A stretch of DNA of 64,000 nucleotides from an uncultured Bacteroidales bacterium. GTDB taxonomy: Bacteria; Bacteroidota; Bacteroidia; Bacteroidales; Muribaculaceae. Shown in pieces: positions 22,350 through 63,079 of this stretch (position 1 is the stretch's first letter; each line of letters opens with the position of its first letter). The notes beneath the pieces were generated by a model. It did not search any database, had not been told where the DNA came from, and was given only the letters and a program-made list of their open reading frames with translations. The DNA lies in the NCBI GenBank assembly GCA_947176235.1, contig CAMWPM010000002.1, positions 1 through 64,000 on the forward strand, given 5' to 3'. Position numbers and translations under genes: made by a program.

Positions 22350-23795
22350 TCACCAGAGCGATGTCTGTGCCGGATTTTCCGGTCTTGAAGGCTTCTTTGT
22401 CGGTTCCTTGTATCCGAAATCCTCAAGTTCTACTTTCGGAGCAAGGGAAGTTCCTGCCGGGGGGGTCGACACAAGCCAGTCAGTATCATTAAGGGTTTCG
22501 TCTATCGCCGTTATCTTCGGACTCATTTTCAGCCCTCTTCTTTTTCGTTTCGGTGTATCCTTTGGATCTTCCGCAGCTTCGTTAGCGTATTCCGCCACTG
22601 TTTCAGAAGTTACAGATGCCGCGGTCAATTGCTCTTTGACTGCCGACAGCTCTGACATAAGCCGTTCGTTCAGATCCTTAAGTTCTTGATTCTCATCTGT
22701 CAGTCGTGAAATGCGGTCTGCATCTTTCTTCTTGGCTTCCTCAAGTTTATCAAGCTCTTCCGAAATTTCGTTTAGGACTTCAAACTGTCGGTTGGATTCC
22801 TCAACCTGTGAGGTGAGTTCCTCGACTTGCGAAGCGGCTTCCTGGACTTGCGAGGTTAATTCCTCGATTTTTTTGGAATCCTCAGCGGTCCGGCTTTGAT
22901 AATCATTTATCATCGCGTCACTCACGTCATTTTTGACCCTGAGATTATCATTCGCCTGACGAAGTTCTTCATTTTCAGTCCTTGCTGACGCGATTGCCTG
23001 CTCAAGGGAAGCAACCTGCTCCTGTAATGCATCGATTTTTTCTCGCAGAGTGGCATCCTCCGATGTGTTGGCAGTCTCTGGTTCTGTTGTGTCTGCTGAT
23101 GGGTTTATTGCACCAGCACGCATCCTGCTGAGCTCGGCACGCATGTTGTTCAGCTCTTCCTTTAAGGCTTCGTTATCACCTTCCTGCACGGTTAGTGCCC
23201 TCACCTTGTTCACCAGACTTTTATTTTCAAGGTCAAACTGCTCTCTCTCTGCTTCGAAATGCGCTACTTGCGATTCAAGATCATGCACTCTTTCACTCAG
23301 GGCGCGTTTCTGTCGTTCCGCACTTAGGCGTTGTCTTGTCGATTCCTCGTTTGCCTCCTCCACTCTCCGTGATTTGGCTCTCAGATTCTCGATTTCTGTC
23401 TTCATTTTCGAGCGTTCGTCACTCACTGCCATCCGTTGCTTCATCGCTTCGTAGGACATCAGACGGTCAAGATATTCCTTTACCGAGGAATCAAGACGCT
23501 CAAACAACAGTTTCCGTTCGGATTCTTCGTTCAGACACTCTTTGACAAATTCAGGCATGTGGCGGTTGATGACCTCCACCACTCCTTCAAAAATTATTGA
23601 TGTATCCCGTTCCACGCTTTCAGGGCAACTGATGTCTGAGCATCCTGTATTCCTCGGCTCTTCATCATCTGTGGCATAGGACGTTGCAGCATTTTCGCTG
23701 TAATTCTCCCCCGCCTCTTCCTGATTGTAGTCGTTATACTCATCGGCGTCCGGAGCTAATCCGAATGCTCTTTTCATTGCACTGAAGAAGCTCAT
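22350..23795 (-). CDS. Long coiled-coil protein coupled to the receiver-PPDK gene
   Basis: The protein has 481 residues. A short N-terminus (FFSAMKRAFGLAPDADEYND) and an acidic linker precede a long heptad-rich coiled coil from about residue 95 to 390. This includes near-repeats of EELTSQV. The tail is basic (KRKRRGLKM) and then Pro-rich. There is no signal peptide or membrane segment, so it is probably cytoplasmic. The start overlaps the stop of the upstream gene by 4 bases, which makes a partnership with that protein plausible. Low-complexity coiled coils match many proteins weakly, so I do not assign a family. Confidence 0.65.
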   Translation of the reverse strand: MSFFSAMKRAFGLAPDADEYNDYNQEEAGENYSENAATSYATDDEEPRNTGCSDISCPESVERDTSIIFEGVVEVINRHMPEFVKECLNEESERKLLFERLDSSVKEYLDRLMSYEAMKQRMAVSDERSKMKTEIENLRAKSRRVEEANEESTRQRLSAERQKRALSERVHDLESQVAHFEAEREQFDLENKSLVNKVRALTVQEGDNEALKEELNNMRAELSRMRAGAINPSADTTEPETANTSEDATLREKIDALQEQVASLEQAIASARTENEELRQANDNLRVKNDVSDAMINDYQSRTAEDSKKIEELTSQVQEAASQVEELTSQVEESNRQFEVLNEISEELDKLEEAKKKDADRISRLTDENQELKDLNERLMSELSAVKEQLTAASVTSETVAEYANEAAEDPKDTPKRKRRGLKMSPKITAIDETLNDTDWLVSTPPAGTSLAPKVELEDFGYKEPTKKPSRPENPAQTSLW

Positions 23796-34905: not shown

Positions 34906-35074
34906 CAATTTTTTGTCTACACCTCCCCCTTTTCCTTCCACTTTTTCCCGCTTCATCACCAAGTATTTCCAGTTTCATTTCCAGTTTCATTTATTATGGT
35001 GTTTTGTGCTAAACCATCCGACACCCCGTAGCGTTGTTTATTCGAGAGTCTCACTTAATTATTCCTCGGATAAT

Positions 35075-36352: not shown

Positions 36353-36420
36353 TTTCCTTCTTATTGATTTGTCAGAAGTGTACTTATTACACTTTTTAAC
36401 AAAAAAGTTGTGTTCTTTAC

Positions 36421-36451
36421 TTGCACAACCCAAATATTACTTCTACCTTTG
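36421..36451 (+). promoter_or_regulatory. Promoter of a candidate small RNA
   Basis: TTG (36421-36423) and TACCTTTG (36444-36451) are separated by exactly 20 bases. No gene start follows before the terminator at 36608-36650. Confidence 0.6.
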
Positions 36452-36457
36452 CACCCG

Positions 36458-36650
36458 ATAAGAAATTTCATGCATTCACCATAATGTCGTTATGATTGTG
36501 GCTGTGAAGTTCCGATCCTCGGCATGAATGTATTTTGGAATGTAAGTATGATATAATCTCATCGTTTGATTTAACTTTTAATCACAAATCATGCCTCATG
36601 GCATTAGTCCGTCAATCCTCTGCTGAAGAGCGCTGACGGATTTTTATTTT
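36458..36650 (+). ncRNA. Candidate small non-coding RNA, about 190 bases
   Basis: A good promoter and an intrinsic terminator bracket about 190 bases with no plausible reading frame. The terminator pairs TCCGTCA (36608-36614) with TGACGGA (36634-36640), contains an inner CTCT/AGAG stem, and is followed by TTTTTATTTT. Inside, ATGATTGTG (36492-36500) can pair with 36583-36592, closing a region of about 80 bases that includes a CCGA/TCGG hairpin. This length and a closing stem around an AT-rich middle fit a 6S-like RNA, but I cannot confirm the family. It could equally be an unrelated small RNA. Confidence 0.45.
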
Positions 36651-36693
36651 CACCCCACTAAATAAGTCTCTCCACTCCCAAAACTCCACTCCC

Positions 36694-36780
36694 AACACCT
36701 AACTCCTAACTCCTAACTCCCAACTTCCAACTCTTAACTCCTAACTCCTAACTCCTAACTCCTAACTCCCAACTCCCAAC
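36694..36780. repeat. Heptanucleotide tandem array 1
   Basis: Twelve consecutive 7-base units in perfect register (36694-36777): mainly AACTCCT with AACTCCC and single variants AACACCT, AACTTCC, AACTCTT, then AAC. A degenerate fore-part starts near 36672. The last bases encode the C-terminus of the - strand gene ending at 36762. Confidence 0.95.
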
Positions 36781-37322
36781 TTAATAACTCTCATCCCCAG
36801 TGCTCCTTTCTGCACATGGATTTCTCTCATCGAGCCCGTCCGGGTTCTGTTATACGTCTTTAGAGGAACCGACACTTCCTTCTCCTCGCCGTCCTCAAGC
36901 CTGAGCATCAGATGATAAGTGTAGTAATGACCGTCTGCCACTCTCGTCCGTCTCGACACCCTCCTGTACCGCGTATGCGATTTCTGAAACTTTTCCACCA
37001 CTTCAGCCTTTTCAGCCACATCCGTTCCCGCATCGGCACACCAGAAGTTAACTCCCAGGAAAAGAAAATATCCCACCGATCCCGCCACGAACACATGGCA
37101 AAGCATGTTGACCCAATTGGACGATACTCCGGTCAGCACATCCCATTTATTATAGAACGCCGGAAGCGTAGCTATGGCGGCTACCGCTCCCGGAATCACA
37201 GGTATCCACCACTTTGTGAGCGTAAGATGATAAAGAGCTATTCCTCCGGCAAGCATCATAAATGCTGCACCCATCACCACTATAAGTAATACAGTCGAAA
37301 ATTTTGAATCTTTGAATGACAT
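36762..37322 (-). CDS. Unrecognised membrane protein with repeat-derived C-terminus
   Basis: This 186-residue protein has about four hydrophobic segments in the first 110 residues (VLLIVVMGAAFMMLAGGIALY; WWIPVIPGAVAAIATLPAFY; MLCHVFVAGSVGYFLFLGV). A basic soluble tail of about 75 residues follows (KSHTRYRRVSRRTRVADGHYY). I recognise no family. The last six residues (KLGVGS) and the stop are read from the heptanucleotide array, so the original stop was probably lost or moved when the array formed. A terminator and its own promoter separate it from the ABC exporter genes. Confidence 0.65.
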   Translation of the reverse strand: MSFKDSKFSTVLLIVVMGAAFMMLAGGIALYHLTLTKWWIPVIPGAVAAIATLPAFYNKWDVLTGVSSNWVNMLCHVFVAGSVGYFLFLGVNFWCADAGTDVAEKAEVVEKFQKSHTRYRRVSRRTRVADGHYYTYHLMLRLEDGEEKEVSVPLKTYNRTRTGSMREIHVQKGALGMRVIKLGVGS

Positions 37323-58798: not shown

Positions 58799-58889
58799 AA
58801 CTCCCAACTCCTAACTCCTAAAACCTAACTCCTAACTCCCAACTCCTAACTCCTAACTCCTAACTCCCAACTCCTAACTCCTAACTCTC
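58799..58889. repeat. Heptanucleotide tandem array 2
   Basis: Thirteen units in unbroken 7-base register: mostly AACTCCT and AACTCCC, with AAAACCT once and AACTCTC last. It ends about 50 bases before the -33 element of the rpoD promoter. Confidence 0.95.
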
Positions 58890-62921: not shown

Positions 62922-63033
62922 GGGGTGTCATCACCCCAAGTCACTTGTGCCGGAGGCACAACCCCCTTGTTAACCGCGGGCAGTAATGCCCGTGGTAATA
63001 GTCCCACATACATCCCCAGCCCCTGCGGGGCTG
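62922..63033. repeat. Cluster of four short palindromes
   Basis: The palindromes are GGGGTG/CACCCC (62922-62937), TTGTGCC/GGCACAA (62945-62961), ACCGCGGGC/GCCCGTGGT (62973-62996, one wobble) and CAGCCCC/GGGGCTG (63017-63033). Loops are 3-6 bases. They lie in a non-coding gap and have a base composition unlike the AT-rich sequence around them. Confidence 0.75.
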
Positions 63034-63051
63034 CACCATCACTCCCTGCGC

Positions 63052-63079
63052 AAGTCCTAACTCATAACTTCTAATTCTA
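63052..63079. repeat. Decayed heptanucleotide copies
   Basis: Four 7-base units in register (AAGTCCT, AACTCAT, AACTTCT, AATTCTA) resemble arrays 1 and 2. They end four bases before the -33 box of the next promoter. Confidence 0.5.

Follow-up and report, generated by a model that had tools for sequence, protein, structure and literature searches.

Array 1 and its surroundings

Array 1 occupies positions 36687..36781 (plus strand) of the window, by which we mean the whole 64,000-nucleotide stretch of DNA that was analysed. Before it come a gene for a ClC-type channel and a hairpin resembling a terminator. A DUF2500-like gene, on the opposite strand, overlaps the array by its 3' end. The hairpin and its T-run (36606..36650, plus strand, upstream of the array) fold as RNA with a predicted energy of -16.5 kcal/mol (z -3.0), the T-run being read directly from the sequence. 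The DUF2500-like gene (36762..37322, minus strand; its match to Pfam PF10694, E = 0.00039, falls short of that family's cut-off) takes its final five residues, LGVGS, and its TAG stop codon from array 1; DUF2500 homologues end at ...VIK or a few residues beyond. No known RNA family was matched near array 1 in Rfam, the sole match in the window being a tRNA.

Some further features of this neighbourhood may be recorded. Within 36400-36650, a promoter-like motif, TACCTTTGC (recognized by eye), and a good terminator lie about 180 nt apart; the segment between them has neither a noteworthy ORF nor an Rfam match and is a possible small RNA. Downstream of a DUF2500 homologue in another genus (genome G025, locus L269) there is a 9-bp tandem repeat of the TCAGAGTTC type. 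Other tandem repeats of the window have periods of 21 (22796-22867) and 12 (34965-34992).

The array comprises 13.4 units of AACTCCY in a single register, with the C-rich strand as the plus strand. By Tandem Repeats Finder, the array spans 36688-36781 at period 7, with 13.4 copies, 88% matches and 0% indels, and a direct pattern scan gives consecutive units from 36687, again in one register. To the left lies a degenerate edge, read directly (36666..36686, plus strand; CTCTCCACTCCCAAAACTCC), which is repeat-like, yet out of register, and hence there is an indel at the left edge of the array as it was first read, from 36672. The original prediction had described twelve heptamers running in one register across 36672-36780: the single register and the lack of indels are borne out, but there are 13-14 units, at 36687-36781, and the first 15 bases of the earlier span (36672-36686) fall outside the register. 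The base variation that it noted is evident in six variants, namely, AACTCCT, AACTCCC, AACACCT, AACTTCC, AACTCTT and CACTCCC. Chance is excluded, as the window holds 26 matches to the two-unit pattern, whereas shuffled sequence gives 1.3 ± 1.2 and never more than 5, and as the genome has 112 exact matches to the three-unit pattern, against 0 for the reversed control; array 1 is thus confirmed as a real tandem repeat. Its clean register, which had been taken to suggest recent or ongoing slippage or selection for the period, is not proof of youth, and the register does not extend into the left flank; for array 1 itself, recent slippage is plausible.

Heptamer arrays elsewhere in the window and genome

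Array 2 (58799..58889, plus strand; 58799-58887 by Tandem Repeats Finder) has approximately 12.7 units of AACTCCY and lies upstream of a sigma-70 family gene, with a nucleotidyltransferase-like gene on its other side; like array 1, it is situated beyond a terminator-like hairpin. A degenerate third array (63052..63072, plus strand; AAGTCCTAACTCATAACTTCT) has hairpin modules beside it: at 62930-63075 the modules GTGCCGGAGGCAC, GTTAACCGCGGGC...GCCCGTGG and CAGCCCCTGCGGGGCTG adjoin the degenerate heptamers, and this composite is of the same kind as those found near other arrays.

The genome assembly (2.48 Mb in 100 contigs, 85% complete) was surveyed for arrays over 0.70 Mb (approximately 28%), chosen around arrays and supplemented by small contigs. 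This yielded 48 arrays and hence at least 48 in the genome; together with the 112 three-unit matches, this bears out the suggestion, made from arrays 1 and 2, of a dispersed heptamer family. Arrays occur at the ends of contigs C29, C30, C51 and C87, so the assembly probably misses some. Of the 36 arrays with at least three units, none has its centre in a called gene, with 76% of the sequence coding, where genes were called by a simple codon-usage script and start positions are approximate. The main unit is AACTCCY, and other arrays are ACTCTCC-like or AATGCAY-like. The second heptamer family, AATGCAY/GATGCAC, is seen at L030:5461-5532, L044:5814-5868 and L051:39-117.

The period itself is special, as it stands far above every other. 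Among periods of 4 to 13, this genome has 44 arrays of period 7 and no more than 2 of any other; the corresponding figures are 95 and at most 5 in relatives, and 146 and at most 12 in cyanobacteria.

Similarity between flanks links 22 of the 48 arrays; part of this similarity may stem from low complexity or from heptamers of other kinds. Near arrays, hairpin modules, a TGCGCC repeat and GGGGCGCG modules are enriched relative to random intergenic points, and the modules beside arrays almost always keep the same orientation (5/5, 10/10, 7/7, 10/10, 17/18 and 5/5). Array 1 was also considered as part of a shared cassette, and this was rejected, its flank being common to no other array. In only one array, other than array 1, is there a clear higher-order repeat, of 35 bp (7/7 matches at lag 5; uncorrected p 0.007), which suggests block duplication. 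A RAYT transposase was considered as the spreading enzyme and rejected, as the family genomes show no association (9/15 versus 107/183). REP/RAYT elements combine a palindromic unit with a Y1 transposase, whereas here the array RNA has no predicted fold, and no match to PF01797 turned up when the genome, 85% complete, was searched for the Y1 transposase.

Distribution and turnover

The three-unit pattern is present in 15 of the 198 genomes (species) of the family, probably Muribaculaceae of the order Bacteroidales, representing 11 of 30 genera. In a sample of the phylum it was found in 7 of 296 genomes, six of which are outside the family, five of these with a single locus. Across the GTDB species genomes there are at least 116 stretches of (AACTCCT)x5, which, among the matches listed, are chiefly from Nostocales and also from other Bacteroidota, Desulfobacterota, Gammaproteobacteria and Clostridia. 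The likeness to cyanobacterial heptanucleotide repeats that had been remarked upon is therefore literal: the exact (AACTCCT)x5 recurs in Nostoc, Calothrix, Richelia and Plectonema. Heptamers of the CATAATT, CATAATG and CATAACT types are likewise common, occurring in 33 of the 198 family genomes.

Turnover is evident within one related genus, where genomes have between 0 and 57 matches to the two-unit pattern. Two of its genomes, G179 and G192, are distinct species (approximately 85% DNA identity at one locus), and one of the 12 array loci fetched from G192 matches an array locus fetched from G179; at two further G179 array sites, G192 has no array. At one orthologous gap of this genus, AACTCC-type units stand in runs of 3-8 in G179, G544 and G522; G192 and G524 have CTAATCW heptamers in their place, and G163 has none. 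The original prediction would have been undermined by arrays present only here and fixed in copy number; their occurrence in 15 of the 198 family genomes and the variation at this gap in another genus show otherwise. At L230:15400-15475, a period-10 repeat of the TCTAGATAAT type adjoins the heptamer slot; repeats of this type are scattered through the genomes of several species in the genus, array-free ones included.

Strand orientation and polarity

Of the 25 tandem-gene gaps that hold arrays in this genome, 24 have the C-rich strand as the sense (mRNA) strand (24:1). The main rival to the reading that we prefer builds on this bias: the G-free C-rich RNA, with YC every 7 nt and, by RNA folding, zero predicted structure, would allow Rho to load, or an S1/cold-shock-type protein to land, at gene ends or before starts. 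Indeed, S1/Csp binding was proposed by MacGregor for TAACTGA repeats (PMC4679880). Part of the bias, however, follows from a general avoidance of G on the sense strand of the gaps, which in tandem gaps of 40-80 nt is 10.8% G and 29.9% C; G-free runs of at least 20 nt in the gaps of this genome are themselves distributed 150:53 by strand, a roughly 3:1 bias that the 24:1 of the arrays nevertheless exceeds. Moreover, orientation is not conserved: pooled relatives have the G-rich strand as sense in 26 cases and the C-rich strand in 14 (G-rich-sense 10:2 in G179 and 5:0 in G015), and cyanobacterial arrays are split 18:17. Such differences among relatives argue against one conserved RNA function, and a strand rule or RNA function of general validity was rejected because orientation flips between genomes. 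Both of the main arrays of the window also lie beyond a terminator-like hairpin. Overall, we consider an mRNA role to be unlikely.

The frequent contact between arrays and gene ends, with gene stop codons inside arrays in many species, invites a different reading, namely, that arrays are all-frame stop barriers. Each unit with CTAA supplies a stop on either strand, TAA or TAG, and a period of 7 would thereby stop all six frames within 21 bp. In relatives, six of 11 independent other units carry two-strand stops (2.4 expected, p 0.011), and CTAA-type arrays occur in 46 of the 198 genomes; the control core CATA is likewise common, however (33/198), none of the six other independent units in this genome qualifies, cyanobacteria provide 5 of 22 units against 3.3 expected, and the AACTCCC and ACTCTCC units contain no stop. 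Selection for six-frame stops, suggestive in relatives and unsupported in this genome, was accordingly rejected as an explanation, and we regard stop barriers as distinctly improbable.

Outside this genome, the arrays are also polar with respect to their neighbours. An ORF lies closer on the 5' side of the G-rich strand in relatives (41:10), cyanobacteria (52:9) and other genomes (22:3), and the same polarity is seen for non-AACTCC heptamers in cyanobacteria (33:10), although p-values for polarity and strand are descriptive, as several loci share a genome and the tests were picked after looking. This genome does not show the polarity (12:20). In relatives, 28 of 54 arrays start with AACTCC and end with AACT. 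Slippage alone accounts neither for this phase, nor for the polarity outside this genome, nor for one exact unit in distant phyla. Four observations would recommend, in place of plain slippage, a polar process with a sequence preference by which 7-bp units are added or copied at the borders of genes: arrays in relatives start and end at a fixed phase, the G-rich strand points outward from ORFs of either direction, distant phyla share the identical unit, and one heptamer has taken the place of another at one gap. We nonetheless hold such a process to be very unlikely. Finally, the RGGAGTT strand might form a G-quadruplex, or a related structure in the DNA, that regulates neighbours or replication (compare the GGGNATC repeats). 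This would fit the GGGNATC-type polarity (PMC4692102) of relatives, cyanobacteria and others, but is very unlikely, as most units offer only GG, AACTCCT could form two tetrads at best and the polarity is missing in this genome.

Origin and persistence of the arrays

We conclude that array 1 is one of many dispersed intergenic heptanucleotide repeats, which have probably spread partly in cassettes, been reshaped by slippage or recombination and been tolerated at gene ends. Seeds would reach new gaps partly through the duplication of composite intergenic cassettes, in which hairpins, the TGCGCC repeat and heptamers would be held in fixed order and orientation, and some seeds may arise in place. 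Replication slippage or recombination would then allow arrays to grow, shrink and homogenize by multiples of 7. Presumably, arrays persist because they leave coding sequence unharmed and, in this genome, the G-poor intergenic mRNA as well; a specific regulatory role would be unnecessary.

Comparison with known heptanucleotide repeats

Heptamer repeats have been noted in scattered bacterial lineages since at least 2007, with no cause having gained acceptance. The AACTCCY arrays are best read as a new member of this known class of dispersed intergenic heptanucleotide repeats (the LSSR class; PMC4679880, PMC4692102), as they have 7-bp tandem units beyond chance at many loci, an excess of period 7 and intergenic over-representation. 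We found no description of the AACTCCY unit in Bacteroidales in the searchable literature, the string AACTCCTAACTCCT included. The heptamer-rich long simple sequence repeats of Mrazek et al. (2007; cited by both PMC4679880 and PMC4692102) and the cyanobacterial STRR heptamers resemble the present arrays in their excess of 7-bp units in scattered lineages, and a slippage origin was proposed for them.

TAACTGA direct repeats are known from Beggiatoaceae, cyanobacteria and five Bacteroidetes (MacGregor 2015, PMC4679880). Like the arrays described here, they have a 7-bp unit with TAACT, are dispersed and intergenic, often abut gene ends and are patchily distributed in the same phyla. The unit here, however, is TAACTCC/CAACTCC (AACTCCY), and whereas the TAACTGA repeats of the type genome are mostly short sets just before starts (PMC4679880), AACTCCY arrays are longer, often lie just after stops and follow another strand rule.

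The GGGNATC heptameric repeats of Xanthomonas and Nostoc, for which an ORF-proximity polarity was reported (Rehm 2015, PMC4692102), are also intergenic heptamers that avoid divergent gaps and overlap stop codons; they vary in length and sequence among relatives, as is seen here at one orthologous gap of a related genus. Their polarity is reproduced by AACTCCY arrays in relatives and cyanobacteria, but fails in this genome, and the present unit has no G3 tract, GGG arising from AACTCCC only. To these systems the present analysis adds a gut-type family of Bacteroidales, in which close species range from none to dozens of arrays, and an orthologous gap at which the heptamer itself has been swapped. 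Moreover, the polarity described for Xanthomonas and Nostoc is found again, across phyla, in arrays of an unrelated unit, and the causes of this polarity and of period 7 can now be tested by comparing array-rich with array-free sister species.
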